From IMG/VR virus record IMGVR_UViG_3300029910_000189, positions 1 to 23,042 of that record: a DNA stretch of 23,042 bases; one strand, given 5' to 3'. The stretch comes from a virus. The position numbers and the translations under genes were made by a program. This document shows positions 14,772-20,578 of this stretch, in pieces. The notes beneath the pieces are model-generated. The model ran no database searches. It worked only from the letters and a program-made list of their open reading frames with translations, and was not told where the DNA came from. Numbering within the stretch: position 1 is the stretch's first letter; every line of letters starts with the position of its first letter.

Positions 14772-14799
14772 CTTAACACAATTTAATAAGGCTTGTCAA
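14770..14799 (-). promoter_or_regulatory. Candidate sigma70 promoter for ssb and downstream genes
   Basis: On the minus strand a consensus -35 TTGACA (14799-14794) is followed after 18 bp by TAAGAT (14775-14770), 4 of 6 matches to TATAAT. The -35 lies inside the last codons of the polymerase C-terminal gene. The only non-coding gap of note in this area follows it. Transcription would begin near 14763 and give ssb a short leader. Confidence 0.5.
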
Positions 14800-15505
14800 C
14801 TTTAACCATATCAAGAGTGTTCATTCCGACTTTCACTTCACAAGCTAAGGGCACTGTCCAGTTAATCTTGAACGTCCGATTCAGGTTGCTCACCAGATCG
14901 TCGAACACCTCGTAGAACAGCTTTACAACTTGGTCCACATACTTCTTCTCGCAATCCACTACGATTGAATCGTGGACCGTTGAAATCAACAGTACCGGAA
15001 TACCAAGAGCCTTCAACCGGCGTGAGAAGCTGATACGGGCGATCATCATTACATCGGCACCTGTCCCCTGTACTGGGTAGTTTGTTAGAGTTGTCCATGG
15101 TACTTTGAGTTCTCCGTAGCGATCTCGCGTGATTTTGATAGTCCACTCTCGTCCTGACGGACCGACGAGCGGTCGACCAGCCATGACCTCTTCCGCCCAG
15201 TGCTTATGTGTCGCATCAAGTACTTTGTATTTACCATAGAATTTTTCTCCTATTCCGTCCCAGAAAGCGGGACTGGTGGACACGTGCATGAAATCCGGAT
15301 CCACTGAAAAGGCGTAGCCGCTCCCTCGGAAAATAGTGCGGAAGAGGTAGATCTTTGCAATGAATCGACTAGGTAGGTTAAAGGCTTTTTCGTTGAGGCT
15401 GTGCGGATCTTGGCCTTCAACAATCTCCTTGATCCCAACCGGGTCTTGGCTAAGCTGCAAGGCTGTGCGCCACTCCAATTGGCTGGCATCACACGCTACC
15501 AGCAT
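14783..15505 (-). CDS. Family A DNA polymerase, C-terminal piece (palm and fingers)
   Basis: 240 residues. It begins right at polymerase motif A (LVACDASQLEWR; D6), then motif B (SRFIAKIYLFRTIFRGSG; R47, K51) and motif C (STVHDSIVVD; H178, D179), with the preceding NYPVQGTGAD block. All catalytic residues for nucleotide addition are present. The residue matching T7 Tyr526 / E. coli Pol I Phe762 is Phe55. It has its own strong Shine-Dalgarno (AAGGA, 15515-15511, five bases before ATG), so it is built to be made as a separate polypeptide. The N-terminal half (exonuclease and thumb) is encoded at 15655-16794. The two pieces presumably assemble. Confidence 0.92.
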   Translation of the reverse strand: MLVACDASQLEWRTALQLSQDPVGIKEIVEGQDPHSLNEKAFNLPSRFIAKIYLFRTIFRGSGYAFSVDPDFMHVSTSPAFWDGIGEKFYGKYKVLDATHKHWAEEVMAGRPLVGPSGREWTIKITRDRYGELKVPWTTLTNYPVQGTGADVMMIARISFSRRLKALGIPVLLISTVHDSIVVDCEKKYVDQVVKLFYEVFDDLVSNLNRTFKINWTVPLACEVKVGMNTLDMVKVDKPY

Positions 15506-15662
15506 TAGATTCCTTCAGATCCCGTGTCTTGACAGCATGACTCAAAGCCTCATATTCTTCCTTACTCAAGTTCATTATGAAGTCCTGGAAGGTGTCAGAA
15601 TACTCCAGCTTTACAAAGATATTACTCAACATCTTTTCTTCGTTGACAACGTGCTTAGTCAC
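15489..15662 (-). CDS. Small ORF lying between the two halves of the DNA polymerase
   Basis: 57 residues from a GTG at 15662 that overlaps the stop of the polymerase N-terminal gene by 8 nt (GTGACTAA). A second possible start is the ATG at 15632 (47 residues). The end overlaps the C-terminal polymerase gene by 17 nt. The sequence begins MTKHVVNEEKMLSNIFVKLE and continues as charged helix (NLSKEEYEALSHAVKTRDLK). The codons read like a normal gene and the overlaps match the style of the operon. No domain is recognised. It may be a polymerase-linking subunit, a remnant of an inserted element, or an unrelated gene. Confidence 0.55.
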   Translation of the reverse strand: MTKHVVNEEKMLSNIFVKLEYSDTFQDFIMNLSKEEYEALSHAVKTRDLKESNAGSV

Positions 15663-16794
15663 TATATCTGCTCACGAATAAATCAGCAGCTTCCCCATCA
15701 AAGTTCTGCTGGTTGGGTTTAGAAGCACTGAGGCGACCGCTGACGGCCACGCATTGATTCAGTTGACCGTGGAGTACACCTGGTTCCCACATCTGCTCTC
15801 GGTTGACTTTGATGATCCCTTCATATGTTTTAGACAATAGGGTATCAAGTCGCACCTGACGCTGGATCAACTCAATGATTGCTTTGGTAGCTTTGTTGCC
15901 TTTGAGTTTGAGTAAGGTATCTTGATTCGTTGCCCAGAATCCCTCCTTCTTTAGTTCCGACCCACGCAGGGGTGTCACTAATCTGGGAAGTTCGTGGAGA
16001 ATCTCGATGTTCTTATATTTAGGTTCCCCTACTCGTGCTCCGCTTTTGAAGAAGCCGATGTGCTCCTTACCTTCCTCCACAATTGTTCCACCATAAAGAA
16101 AGGCAGATAGCTGATCCCCACTACCGAAGTTAATAGGCACGTTAGGATAAATGCTAGATAACTTCTCGGTGATGCGTTGTATCTCTCCCTTAATCTCCTC
16201 CGCACGTTTATGACATAACTCCTCGTCGTACACCAAACCATTTTTCTCCATAGTCTGAAGGATCAATAGATCCATGCCCATGAGATTGACCAAACGTTTC
16301 TGGTTTTGTGTTAACAGTTCTTGTTGTTTATGATACAAGGCCAAGGTCATCTTGGCATCCCAGATAGCATACTCCTCTAGGATAGGCCACGGCACATCTT
16401 CCGTTTGGATTCCTTTAGCCCAATACTCCGTCTTAACAACGTCTAACTTATGTCCAAGATCATGCCGCACGAGGGCATCCTCCAACGAAGGATACCTCTC
16501 CGTTTGTCTACTTAAGATGAACTCGCCGGTTTGGGTGTCGTGGACTCGGCAGATTTCTGGGACTTCGATTCCAATTTTGTTGAGCCAATGGATATCAAAT
16601 TTAATGTTGTGCCCAATGAGAACTCTAGCTCCGAGAATCTTGTCTCTAAGGATTTCGATGCTATCCGATGTAACCTTATTTGCTCCCGCAGAAGTCTCAT
16701 CTGCCCAGCTATAACATACAATTGTGTTTCGTCTATCATAGGGCGCACCATTGTTGTGTGTGCTCGTCTCTACATCTACGCATAGTGCACTCAT
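15655..16794 (-). CDS. Family A DNA polymerase, N-terminal piece (3'-5' exonuclease and thumb)
   Basis: 379 residues. Exonuclease motifs are intact: Exo I CVDVETS (D7, E9), Exo II GHNIKFDIHWL (D67) and Exo III EYAIWDAKMT (Y142, D146). After residue 180 come the thumb helices and, near the end, VSGRLSASKPNQQNFDG, which in intact polymerases leads into motif A. The protein stops after LFVSRYSD, only a residue or two short of where the C-terminal piece starts (MLVACDASQ). Nothing essential seems lost. It overlaps the upstream small gene by 1 nt (TAATG). It would give proofreading and DNA-holding functions. Confidence 0.92.
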   Translation of the reverse strand: MSALCVDVETSTHNNGAPYDRRNTIVCYSWADETSAGANKVTSDSIEILRDKILGARVLIGHNIKFDIHWLNKIGIEVPEICRVHDTQTGEFILSRQTERYPSLEDALVRHDLGHKLDVVKTEYWAKGIQTEDVPWPILEEYAIWDAKMTLALYHKQQELLTQNQKRLVNLMGMDLLILQTMEKNGLVYDEELCHKRAEEIKGEIQRITEKLSSIYPNVPINFGSGDQLSAFLYGGTIVEEGKEHIGFFKSGARVGEPKYKNIEILHELPRLVTPLRGSELKKEGFWATNQDTLLKLKGNKATKAIIELIQRQVRLDTLLSKTYEGIIKVNREQMWEPGVLHGQLNQCVAVSGRLSASKPNQQNFDGEAADLFVSRYSD

Positions 16795-17502: not shown

Positions 17503-18731
17503 ATTAAATCCTGATATCTGGCAATGGTTGGATCAATCAGTGTTTCAAATCTTCCGTGGCGCATCTCGGGCTTGCCGTCTGGATCACCAACAAGTTTGTT
17601 CTTGGACAGGTGCATGAAGCGTAAGTTGTCATACCCAGGCTCATTCACTTTGCCAATGCCCAAAATCCAATCCGCCTCAGCTTGTTTACTTGTCTTGGCG
17701 TTAGCCACATTACCCATGGTAAGCCACTTTTGACCCTCTCCCGATCCATCAGATTGGCACACCCCCACAACGGGGCAGTACGTCTTCGCAAGTTCACGCG
17801 CCCATATGTAGATCGCCCCAAGGCGGAGATCTTCCCGGTCGGAATCAAAACCCTTGATCTTGTCAATTTGATCGAATACAACGAGAGATGGTTTTTGGAT
17901 CGAACAGATCTTTTCCACCTGCCTCCAGTGGATACTCGCCGAATCTTTGAGTTTGATATTCCCATGAGTTACCTCGTGATATCGTCTGTGGTTCCCCGGC
18001 ATATCCCGTAACAAAGTTACCATGTCAATCCCTAGGGCTGCTTGGTAACAACGTAACATTACTTCTCGGCCAACCTGCTCATTATTGAACCAGAGAATCG
18101 GACCCTTAGCTTGCGAAGCCATGTGTGTAACTTCCGAAGCGAGGAACGTCGTCTTGCCTGTTTCGGGGCGTGCAAATACAAAACCAAAATTACCCTGTCG
18201 AAGCGAACCAAGAGCCTGATTAAGACTGTTAAGACGCCATCGCAAACCTTCCACAGCACGACTTGCATTAACGATCTCGATAAGATCATCAGATACGAAG
18301 TCATCCAAGTCACTATCTTTAGATGCATCTCCTTCACCTGTTTGTTTAAGTGCCTCCAGCTTGGCTAGAATGCCCTCCATTGGCTTGCGGCCCTCTGCTG
18401 CATCGTAGGCATCCAGCGATAGTTCCCGTAGGAGCCTGGACGTTTGTAGGCCGTCTATTAATTTCTCGGTACTTTCCAACGAAGCTTCATTCTTCCTGAT
18501 AGCTTCAAATACATCTTGATAGAACTCTATCTTACCACGATTCGTTGAGAAATACAAGTTAGATAGATCATCTACTGTGATACTCTCGTGGTTGTCACCA
18601 AGAAAGTGGGCATCAATAGTACGTAGGATTGGATGTAGGTCTTTGGAGAGATCCTCTACATCGATTCTATCACGTATACCATGGTAAGTCGTCTTGTTCA
18701 GTAGGTGGCGGATTACGCTCAGTTCGCTCAA
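17499..18731 (-). CDS. DnaB-like replicative DNA helicase
   Basis: 410 residues. A helical N-terminal domain (to about residue 130) is followed by a RecA-type motor: Walker A FARPETGKTT (K193, T194), Walker B SLVVFDQID (D287) and later VVGVCQSDGSGEG, typical of the DnaB/gp4 helicase core. It unwinds the fork 5' to 3' as a hexamer. Primase is a separate gene (20891-21691), unlike the fused T7 gp4. The first 62 nt overlap the HNH-AP2 gene in another frame, and the DnaB-like N-terminus makes this start credible. Confidence 0.92.
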   Translation of the reverse strand: MSELSVIRHLLNKTTYHGIRDRIDVEDLSKDLHPILRTIDAHFLGDNHESITVDDLSNLYFSTNRGKIEFYQDVFEAIRKNEASLESTEKLIDGLQTSRLLRELSLDAYDAAEGRKPMEGILAKLEALKQTGEGDASKDSDLDDFVSDDLIEIVNASRAVEGLRWRLNSLNQALGSLRQGNFGFVFARPETGKTTFLASEVTHMASQAKGPILWFNNEQVGREVMLRCYQAALGIDMVTLLRDMPGNHRRYHEVTHGNIKLKDSASIHWRQVEKICSIQKPSLVVFDQIDKIKGFDSDREDLRLGAIYIWARELAKTYCPVVGVCQSDGSGEGQKWLTMGNVANAKTSKQAEADWILGIGKVNEPGYDNLRFMHLSKNKLVGDPDGKPEMRHGRFETLIDPTIARYQDLM

Positions 18732-19275
18732 TAAAAACCTCCATCGCTTGAGCTATCTCCTTTTCGGAGAATTTTACACGTCCCACAGGCTTGGCCTGCT
18801 TCGGTACTTCGTTACTAATCTTTTGAATTAACGTCTCGTGCGCTGCAAGCGCGGCGTCCAGTGAAAGGAAAGGTCCAGCATTGTAAAACTTACCGTTGTG
18901 TTCAACGGAAACTTCCCAGGTATCGTTAGCGTAATTTTTAGAGATACCCTTGACTCCGGTACACGTGGTACGTCGGCGTCGTCTATACTTCAAGTGTTCA
19001 GCATGCGTCTGTAGCTGTAGGTTGGTCCACTGATTGTTGAGGGGATTACCGTCGAGGTGACGGACTCGTTCAGGGGGGACCACACCAGTCATGTAATACC
19101 ATGCGAGGTTACATGCTAACCACAATACTCCATTAACACACACCCTACGATGACCGAAGTGGTCAATTGTACCTGCTGGTGTTGTTAGGCTTCTACCTCT
19201 TTTAGAAACAATCCAAAAGAAATATCCAGATACTAAATCGTATCTGATTTGTTCTTTTAGTTCTTTTATATTAAT
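18670..19275 (-). CDS. HNH endonuclease with AP2-like DNA-binding domain; start codon not canonical
   Basis: The HNH part reads VRHLDGNPLNNQWTNLQLQT (catalytic H-N-N), preceded by LACNLAWYYMTG. An AP2-like domain follows (TGVKGISKN, WEVSVEHNGKFYNAGPF, LDAALAAHE). This combination is typical of free-standing phage homing endonucleases. The first normal start is GTG at 19143, which cuts off the usual N-terminus. In the same frame, upstream, lies a good family match (IRYDLVSGYFFWIVSKRGRS, then PAGTIDHFGHRRV) open to a TAA at 19308-19306 with no ATG/GTG/TTG. The boundary given here uses ATT at 19275; ATA at 19287 is nine bases after a GAGGAG. A damaged start or sequencing error is also possible. 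Confidence 0.65.
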   Translation of the reverse strand: MNIKELKEQIRYDLVSGYFFWIVSKRGRSLTTPAGTIDHFGHRRVCVNGVLWLACNLAWYYMTGVVPPERVRHLDGNPLNNQWTNLQLQTHAEHLKYRRRRRTTCTGVKGISKNYANDTWEVSVEHNGKFYNAGPFLSLDAALAAHETLIQKISNEVPKQAKPVGRVKFSEKEIAQAMEVFIERTERNPPPTEQDDLPWYT

Positions 19276-19584: not shown

Positions 19585-19907
19585 TATGGATTAGCATCCG
19601 GTATAACTGCCCGTCGTCCTTTGTCCCGCTCAAGGGCAAGTTGGCAGTGGTTGGTTTGAAACCAGCTAAGGAGCTTACACATCACACATCCCCACTCCTC
19701 ACCGGCTAGCTGAGCCTTCGCAGAACGGCTTGAGATGGTCTCGTTGGGATCCCCGAAGGTCAGGGCATTACCCAACTGGTCCAACGTCACCAGGACGTTC
19801 TTAAGCCAGCTATCACCTTGAACTGCTTGGTACTTCCCCAGGATAGCCAAGGGCATTCGGAGGAACGAGACAGTGCAATTCTCCAGATATAGTTCTAGTT
19901 TGTTCAT
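19584..19907 (-). CDS. Conserved phage protein with LDQLGNALTFGDPNETIS motif
   Basis: 107 residues. The central LDQLGNALTFGDPNETISSR is a signature I associate with small phage and prophage proteins often located near lysis or membrane genes; no biochemical role is known to me. A conserved-looking C-terminal part has CVMCKLLSWFQTNHC with Cys and His that could bind metal. Start overlaps the protease stop in ATGA. The neighbours are a secreted protease and small membrane peptides, so an envelope-linked task is possible but unproven. Confidence 0.75.
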   Translation of the reverse strand: MNKLELYLENCTVSFLRMPLAILGKYQAVQGDSWLKNVLVTLDQLGNALTFGDPNETISSRSAKAQLAGEEWGCVMCKLLSWFQTNHCQLALERDKGRRAVIPDANP

Positions 19908-20578
19908 TTAATCAGTTCCAAAGACTTAGCTGGAGTCAAGAAGTTCAGGCCAAACGGGACGTCACTGCCCCGATCAGCTTTGAGTGCCAGTTCCGCGACA
20001 CCAACGACACAACTATGTACGTCGTCAACAGCAGGACCACCGCTGTTTCCTGGAAGCATGACACCATCATACTGAACAAAAGTAGCAAACTTACCAAGAT
20101 CGTCCGTGAGGTCTCGACTCGGGTTGCTGACAGTGCCGAACGAAATAGTTTTACTTTGTGCAAGTGGTCCGCCCATTAAGTGTACTCGTTCCCCATAATA
20201 TGCGGGGTCTTTACAAACAGGAAAACCTTTCGGCCAATTGATAGTCCCGTCTGTGGTCTTCAGCGTCATCAGATCAGGACCAGTGGCAAAGTTCTCCCCG
20301 TCCCCTTTCTTTTCGATAACAAAGTCGTGCGGCTTGCCGTCCCCGAAGTCCACTACATAAGGGCTTGCTGGCACTGCCTGTCCCTCCTGACAGTGGGCTG
20401 CTGTAACTACCGTGTGGGTTCCAGCCAGTACCCAACCACTACAGTGGCCCAAGTCCATCGTAACCGACACAACACTGTCTAGTTGTTTCTGGAGAGGCGG
20501 AAAGTAATGCACGTTAACTGCACATCCGGCCAGCAGAATAGCTAGGCCCACCATTGCACCTCGAATGAAATTATTCAC
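19904..20578 (-). CDS. Trypsin-like serine protease, predicted lipoprotein
   Basis: 224 residues. The N-terminus is a lipoprotein signal: a short basic end, hydrophobic core, then lipobox LLAGC with C19. The catalytic triad of the chymotrypsin fold is visible: H62 in VVTAAHC, D102 in TGPDLMTLK and S179 in LPGNSGGP. Cys pairs at 46/63 and 122/190 could form disulfides, which fits export to the periplasm. The residue set is complete, so an active protease is expected. It begins at a GTG, overlapping the upstream gene by 8 nt. Possible roles are attacking envelope or periplasmic proteins, superinfection blocking or aiding lysis. Its position among replication genes suggests early expression. Confidence 0.88.
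   Translation of the reverse strand: MNNFIRGAMVGLAILLAGCAVNVHYFPPLQKQLDSVVSVTMDLGHCSGWVLAGTHTVVTAAHCQEGQAVPASPYVVDFGDGKPHDFVIEKKGDGENFATGPDLMTLKTTDGTINWPKGFPVCKDPAYYGERVHLMGGPLAQSKTISFGTVSNPSRDLTDDLGKFATFVQYDGVMLPGNSGGPAVDDVHSCVVGVAELALKADRGSDVPFGLNFLTPAKSLELIK

Follow-up and report, generated by a model that had tools for sequence, protein, structure and literature searches.

A DNA polymerase gene split in two has been reported for the OM43 phages MEP401/402 and most group I genomes, an intron being considered possible (PMC10580990). We describe here a further case, found in the window, i.e., the whole stretch of 23,042 nucleotides (nt) that was analysed, positions 1 to 23,042 of the IMG/VR virus record IMGVR_UViG_3300029910_000189. 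Its family A DNA polymerase is encoded by two genes, with the same break before motif A as in MEP401/402, a small open reading frame (ORF) in between, and 35-41% identity to the homologous halves of those phages. The split is already known for MEP401/402, and the window is a further member of a lineage noticed once before. On the other hand, a 77-amino-acid (aa) ORF lies between the halves of MEP401/402, the intron was left open by the authors, and neither the labile gene slot nor the motif A breaks treated below appear in the available part of that report (PMC10580990). Other described systems resemble the window to different extents. The replicative polymerase of the Aeromonas phages 25 and 44RR is also made as two polypeptides, 43A and 43B, although it belongs to family B and is broken at another point; the phage 25 halves co-purify and are active, and an endonuclease gene lies at the break of phage 25, 44RR having none (PMC2988022). 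The LUZ24-like DNA polymerase parts I and II are family A parts in separate genes, the break separating the exonuclease from the polymerase part (PMC3890496; Rembedalsseter). Aeromonas Aeh1 nrdA/mobE is an essential enzyme in functional pieces with an endonuclease in the break, in this case a ribonucleotide reductase (PMC2988022). In the T4 topoisomerase genes 39-mobA-60, an endonuclease splits the gene, and a non-coding insert near the downstream start may protect from a homing nuclease (PMC2988022, PMC5009743). Several relatives of the window with a disrupted polymerase share this T4 anatomy, whereas the window itself lacks both endonuclease and insert.

The two genes of the window together encode a family A DNA polymerase, which is confirmed, and very probably represent a replicative polymerase stably divided just before motif A. 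Both lie on the minus strand, as do the gap ORF and the replication genes around them (ORF list and translations). The N-half gene (16794-15655) encodes 379 aa comprising the 3'-5' exonuclease, the thumb and the start of the palm, and ends in LFVSRYSD. The exonuclease domain PF01612 is matched in it, and the DEDD residues of the Exo I (D7-x-E9, 16768..16776), Exo II (N63...D67, 16594..16608) and Exo III (Y142...D146, 16357..16371) motifs, i.e., D7, E9, D67, Y142 and D146, are invariant among 28 aligned N halves, N63 being nearly so. The C-half gene (15505-14783; 240 aa) encodes palm and fingers and begins MLVACDASQLEWR. It contains an uninterrupted motif A (CDASQLEWR, 15467..15493), motif B (RFIAKIYLFRTIFRGSGYAF, 15308..15367) and motif C (VHDSI, 14963..14977), whose residues D6 (motif A), R47 and K51 (motif B), and H178 and D179 (motif C) are invariant among 29 aligned C halves. 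These assignments draw on ORFs, Pfam, alignments, PDB profiles and structural models, and agree with the preliminary description of this DNA, made from the sequence alone, which had placed three exonuclease motifs and the thumb in the first gene and motifs A, B and C in the second.

The same description held that almost nothing of the polymerase is missing, which comparison bears out. The Pfam profile DNA_pol_A (PF00476) is covered from position 53 to 131 by the N half and from 154 to 378 by the C half. On Bst Pol I chains, residue 332 is the last one covered by the best N-profile stretch (28 sequences) and 353 the first one covered by the C profile (29 sequences), and the junction differs from the fused enzyme of HMO-2011 (L167; loci carry L numbers throughout) in a few loop residues at most. 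Little of the polymerase is thus missing, because the Bst Pol I alignments nearly meet and HMO-2011 differs by so few residues. The break lies immediately ahead of the palm strand that bears motif A, which in Pol I structures would correspond to a turn linking adjacent strands. The AlphaFold2 model of the C half reaches a predicted local distance difference test (pLDDT) value of 94 and shows residues 2-8 (motif A) as a strand; that of the N half reaches 91, its last 40 residues dropping to 65-75, as would be expected for a model from which the partner is absent. Family A polymerases are the top Foldseek matches of both models, and the C half matches Pol I in the PDB profile search. The ratio of nonsynonymous to synonymous substitutions (dN/dS) is 0.11-0.17 when the C half of the window is compared with those of L008, L009 and L013; for the N half, dS is saturated against L008, L009, L012 and L014, with a dN of 0.35-0.39. 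Two near-copy IMG/VR contigs from metagenomes 3300028801 and 3300029882 cross the break, the identity being 100% for L006 (11,366 bases) and 99.9% for L007 (9,045 bases); an assembly error at the break is unlikely because both carry the same stretch.

The split was followed through related phages by two IMG/VR scans, the best 80 of each giving 160 loci, and by tblastn of phage records, in which Alcaligenes phage QDWS535, Methylophilales phages MEP401/402 and two Manatee Spring genomes proved to be split relatives. Six-frame profile searches found separate ORFs in 154/154 loci matching both halves, and 12 further loci with the C half only; this count is lax, since L051 has just a short exonuclease match and a few contigs entered it twice. 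Stricter recounting of all loci fetched up to that point gave 167 distinct loci with a C start, 159 with both halves, and 155 after excluding ICP2-type outgroups, none of these 155 holding a fused polymerase. Under the lax recount of all fetched loci, a single ORF matched both profiles in four: HMO-2011, APK16 (L168) and the distant L212 and L213. The search of related phages for intact versions, recommended in the preliminary description and run here with queries from split members, returned fused ORFs only in distant outgroups. N and C halves diverge congruently (Mantel r = 0.91, n = 126 loci; 0/999 permutations as high). The gap between them ranges from -17 to 3598 nt over 127 intact loci (e.g., -17, -14, -4, -1, 0, 1, 29, 48 and 52), and the halves stand in the three possible frame relations in 38, 42 and 47 of these loci. 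Among cultured phages, the halves overlap by 1 nt in QDWS535 (gap -1), are separated by the 77-aa ORF in MEP401/402, and by 9 nt in ICP2_2013. The largest gap, 3598 nt or 3.6 kilobases (kb), belongs to L002 (MW202796.1, 3902-7501), which carries other genes there, among them a cytosine methyltransferase. This comparison supports a split that is old and lineage-wide rather than a recent mutation, each half being complete, co-inherited and conserved, and having a separate start and stop whose frame relation to the other half varies. The proposal of a true two-subunit polymerase gains support from the absence of fused alleles, the low C-half dN/dS, the invariant residues and the congruent divergence, and also from cultured phages with a similar break and almost no gap, the assembly of the proteins being inferred.

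Mechanistically, the N protein would give the exonuclease, the thumb and the first piece of the palm, and the C protein the catalytic palm and fingers; the two polypeptides may assemble non-covalently into one active enzyme, by analogy with gp43A/43B of phage 25. The split would most likely have originated by insertion of an endonuclease into an ancestral intact gene. Several points weigh against this account. The dN/dS of the window N half is not computable, synonymous sites being saturated against the closest relatives, and the window gap is without endonuclease, so that the proposed origin rests on relatives. The scans were all seeded with split members, so the census is not unbiased and may have passed over close relatives with a fused gene; the strict filter also excludes fused enzymes at the distance of HMO-2011. 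In the phage collection, matches below the split ones start at 33% C-half identity; HMO-2011 and, from the N-half list, APK16 were checked and are single ORFs, these two alone having been checked among the lower matches. Finally, the junction of ICP2 and VP41s3 lies about 12 residues earlier, and the split need not have arisen only once; a second origin in ICP2-like phages was considered, and is not separable from a moved junction. A stable two-gene family A polymerase cut at the catalytic palm, spread over a large lineage, offers a natural template for split polymerases.

The gap of the window measures 149 nt (15506-15654) and holds a 57-codon gene with a GTG start (15662-15489), which shares its first 8 nt with the end of the N gene and its last 17 nt with the C gene. 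A Shine-Dalgarno-like AAGGA (15515-15511) stands 5 nt upstream of the ATG of the C half. The ORF list thus corroborates the preliminary description as to the gap, the open frame overlapping both sides and the AAGGA. The 57-codon ORF itself is to be read not as a linker but as one of the small genes that a labile slot contains, four related loci having homologues of it. Among close relatives (C halves 63-73% identical), the gap is 152 nt in L009, 443 in L008, 473 in L011, 288 in L012, 0 in L013 and 316 in L014. The homologue is the last gene of the gap in L008, L011, L012 and L014, and the near-copies L006 and L007 also carry the gene, which is absent from the fetched stretches of L009, L013, L016 and L017, where both halves are kept. 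Pairwise dN is below dS in the six computable pairs of the family (ratios 0.19-0.36), dS being saturated in the other four. The protein has no Pfam match above cut-off and no PHROGs match at E <= 0.01, and phage records yield one match of E = 7 and nothing else; a small-ORF profile detects no similarity between the family and the 77-aa ORF of MEP401/402. By these sequence comparisons, the ORF is probably a genuine gene, one of the small passengers of a site whose content changes, and is probably translated by coupling. Small genes come and go in this slot, as do endonucleases in relatives, which may be homing endonucleases; the ORF list shows no endonuclease gene in the window gap, unlike in some relatives and some ICP2 isolates.

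The most tenable alternative, albeit an unlikely one, makes the 57-codon protein a third polymerase subunit bridging the halves, which would agree with the conservation of its family immediately ahead of the C gene in the window (and L006 and L007), L008, L011, L012 and L014, with its dN below dS where computable, and with overlapping ends that suggest coupled expression. The gene was nevertheless not found in the fetched stretches of L009, L013, L016 and L017, relatives at similar distance that keep both halves, and its protein has no Pfam or PHROGs match at the cut-offs given above and a single phage-record match, of E = 7. An accessory role in the polymerase is possible and is not needed, because close relatives exist without the gene near their polymerase.

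The preliminary description had offered a bypass like that of T4 gene 60 and a short intron as alternatives; both are disfavoured for the window by the lack of an Rfam match, the gap-less relatives and the absence of a fixed frame. Ribosome bypass of the 149 nt, or a frameshift, would give a fused protein, and the open frame spanning the gap and overlapping both sides speaks for it. Gap length and frame are however free in relatives, the gap ORF is conserved in four of them, and in L002 a bypass would need to skip 3.6 kb. Besides, a gene 60-type arrangement has a startless downstream part joined to the upstream frame, and the C half here has an ATG and an AAGGA; this alternative is therefore quite improbable. 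Slightly less credible still is a short self-splicing intron of 149 nt yielding one polypeptide. Phage polA genes often carry group I introns, according to PMC10580990, and nine relatives of the lineage do have inserts of 668-788 nt at two fixed places inside the C half, codon 56/57 in L064, L067, L073, L161 and L197, and codons 146-148 in L072, L079, L085 and L266. These large interruptions, and those close to the N-half end in L040-L044, are probably group I introns; the insert of L197 matches RF00028 (E 9e-7, 33.6 bits), a match below the gathering score of 50. At that score, group I introns were sought in 12 loci (11 large-insert loci and L022) with none found, and a relaxed threshold added L197 only. 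Against an intron in the window, positions 15350-15800 give no Rfam match at E <= 1 and no sign of a group I intron core; gaps of -17 to 1 nt in relatives, or of 9 nt in ICP2_2013, leave no room for one; the halves of L002 have annotated genes between them; and the C half possesses a start codon and a ribosome site of its own. A decaying or accidental allele, with replication by another polymerase, can be practically dismissed, as nothing in the window was found to support it and it is contradicted by the low C-half dN/dS, the invariant catalytic residues of both halves, the same split throughout the lineage including cultured phages, and the neighbouring break of ICP2. A split intein was also considered; none was seen at the ends by eye, the N end and the C start running directly in polymerase sequence, no intein model having been applied.

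Apart from the two-gene organization itself, the C half is broken at most five codons behind the catalytic Asp of motif A in 29/167 distinct loci. The breaks, at codon 10 or beside it, amount to 1-10 extra nt; L086 and L175 lack one nt instead. Start codon and Asp share one frame in 29/29 broken loci; a stop follows 4-6 codons past the Asp in 24/29 (16 TAG, 7 TGA and 1 TAA), and the rest of the enzyme continues behind. Examples are L127:3630-3700 and L141:7720-7790, as well as L046, L053, L075, L086, L025, L034, L052, L171-L175, L180, L181, L185, L261, L266, L268 and others. The breaks recur in separate metagenomes (L127, L171, L172 and L173; L053 and L177); among three loci in GTDB genome bins it occurs in two (L266 and L268, not L267). 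Searched as far as the contigs reach, both genes of the 155 loci contain few other breaks beyond the nine large inserts given above: a 6-nt break in L199, an early end in L130, late N starts in L038 and L070, and in L040-L044 an N half that ends early and is followed by a long stretch. The break of L199, near profile position 342-345 of the N half, is like those of motif A but lies elsewhere. Random errors are an unlikely source of the motif A breaks, because breaks elsewhere in the two genes are so few. Pattern scans for two insert types added little (3/13 and 2/4 matches in C-half genes, one new). No report of motif A disruptions was found in the literature, most subscription journals being outside the search. 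The slot with an endonuclease and the interrupted motif A in relatives are the new, testable part of this work; the motif A of the window is intact, and the window has neither endonuclease nor insert.

Disrupted loci tend to have longer gaps, with a median of 606.5 against 210 nt in intact loci, although disrupted gaps were measured to a point some 20-30 nt later. Of the sister pairs, L127 and L138 (603 vs 52 nt) have the same C protein over the 225 codons compared; further disrupted and intact sisters are L141 and L129 (611 vs 52), L086 and L087 (610 vs 125), and L075 and L069 (1305 vs -4). Exceptions are disrupted L054 (498) against intact L045 (746) and L056 (702), and L061 (396) against intact L067 (377). 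An endonuclease of 144-174 aa is encoded in the extra DNA of L086, L127, L141 and L075 and in the gaps of L046 and L053. Its best PHROG is the endonuclease phrog_3322 (two tested); no Pfam family was matched (three tested), and structure matches by sequence gave nothing meaningful. By eye the gap nucleases read S-I/L-DR-I/K-D, and the DHDH core of the F-CphI type (Endo VII-type, DHHRN), a pattern of F-CphI-type homing endonucleases in the available part of PMC6083498, is not seen in them. Rfam gave no match of note around the L127 endonuclease.

This endonuclease scores >100 bits in the gap of 12/28 disrupted and 0/127 intact loci (Fisher 1e-10); some of the loci bearing it were fetched via the endonuclease itself, and among the 19 disrupted loci from polymerase scans and phage records it is present in 6. 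On the tree, seven independent pairs differ in the endonuclease on well supported branches, and the break co-occurs in 6.8/7 (mean), with a median sign test of 0.016. Every one of the 13 endonuclease-scan loci that exceed 100 bits in the N/C gap is disrupted; six lie on contigs that were part of the set before. L197 has a weaker match (97 bits) and an intact motif A; in L198 and L200 the endonuclease precedes a C-half piece starting at codon 148, outside the N/C gap; L029 combines an endonuclease remnant with a break; L025 and L181 have the endonuclease just before the N half; and L022 has a different HNH protein in the gap. Among cultured phages, an endonuclease gene occupies the slot in the Vibrio phage isolates ICP2 and 2011_A (L269:1872-2321 and L270:1577-1981) and is lacking from the slot of ICP2 2013_A_Haiti (L166:6159-6167); the C halves of the ICP2 isolates are without a motif A break.

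Several observations bear on whether the disrupted enzymes are still made. Past the break, dN/dS is 0.03-0.12 for pairs with the same insert (L127/L171, L127/L172 and L054/L057) and 0.11 for L086/L175, which share a missing nt; recent co-conversion could weaken this argument. In 13 disrupted loci searched over the entire record, though several records are fragments, there is a single C half each and no second, intact one. The ribosome site before the C start is stronger in disrupted loci, with a mean match of 6.7 against 3.9 (22 vs 127 distinct sequences, p = 1e-11) and a match >=5 in 25/29 against 29/131; among 15 independent pairs, 7.7 have the stronger site with the break, 0.1 show the opposite and 7.2 no difference. 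Strong initiation that compensates for rare skipping fits these figures; alternatively, the strong site could belong to the endonuclease cassette. We take the CTT TGA site to resemble the prfB shifty sequence, and the CTT TAG CTN or CTG TAA CTG sites to resemble stop-hopping sequences; other break sites have no matching landing codon. The best reading of these sequences is that ribosomes may skip the extra bases, by a shifty stop, +1, +2 or a hop. Bypass is established for the 50-nt insert at codon 46/47 of gene 60, whereas the inserts of the relatives measure 1-10 nt around codon 10 and their bypass is inferred.

An explanation that we favour by a narrow margin over its negation takes the slot as a homing site: in relatives, a free-standing endonuclease immediately upstream of the C gene would target motif A of unoccupied alleles, the break of 1-10 nt at most five codons from the catalytic Asp would protect occupied alleles from it, ribosomes would skip the break and so still produce the polymerase, and this process would first have split the polymerase. 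Two findings tell against such a cassette, namely that 16/28 disrupted loci have no endonuclease at >100 bits in the gap, and that relatives of the endonuclease also sit at other places around the polymerase, intact loci included (L013, L018, L067, L100 and others). If true, the T4 mobA/gene 60 bypass cassette would have a miniature and recurrent parallel here, and the window would hold an unoccupied, susceptible allele of the split gene. The 29 disrupted alleles, part of which form cassettes with an endonuclease, supply many natural replicates, testable with reporters, for what in T4 gene 60 is the old curiosity of a bypassed insert beside an endonuclease.

The remaining genes of the replication locus are all on the minus strand, and the coordinates given earlier in the preliminary description were all correct when checked on the ORF list. 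A DnaB-like helicase gene (18731-17499; ORF list, Pfam) is followed by an aspartyl/asparaginyl beta-hydroxylase-like gene (PF05118, 17502-16975; Pfam) between helicase and polymerase, and by a small ORF (16982-16794; ORF list). After the C half come an ORF of 196 aa (14745-14155; ORF list), a 5'-3' exonuclease gene (13868-13164) and an endonuclease I gene (13225-12839), the last two by ORF list and Pfam. An HNH_3 endonuclease gene (18670-19143, minus strand) overlaps the start of the helicase gene, and is possibly another free-standing homing nuclease. Beside the replication genes, a Trypsin-like serine protease (PF13365) with a lipoprotein-like start is encoded at 19904-20578, also on the minus strand.

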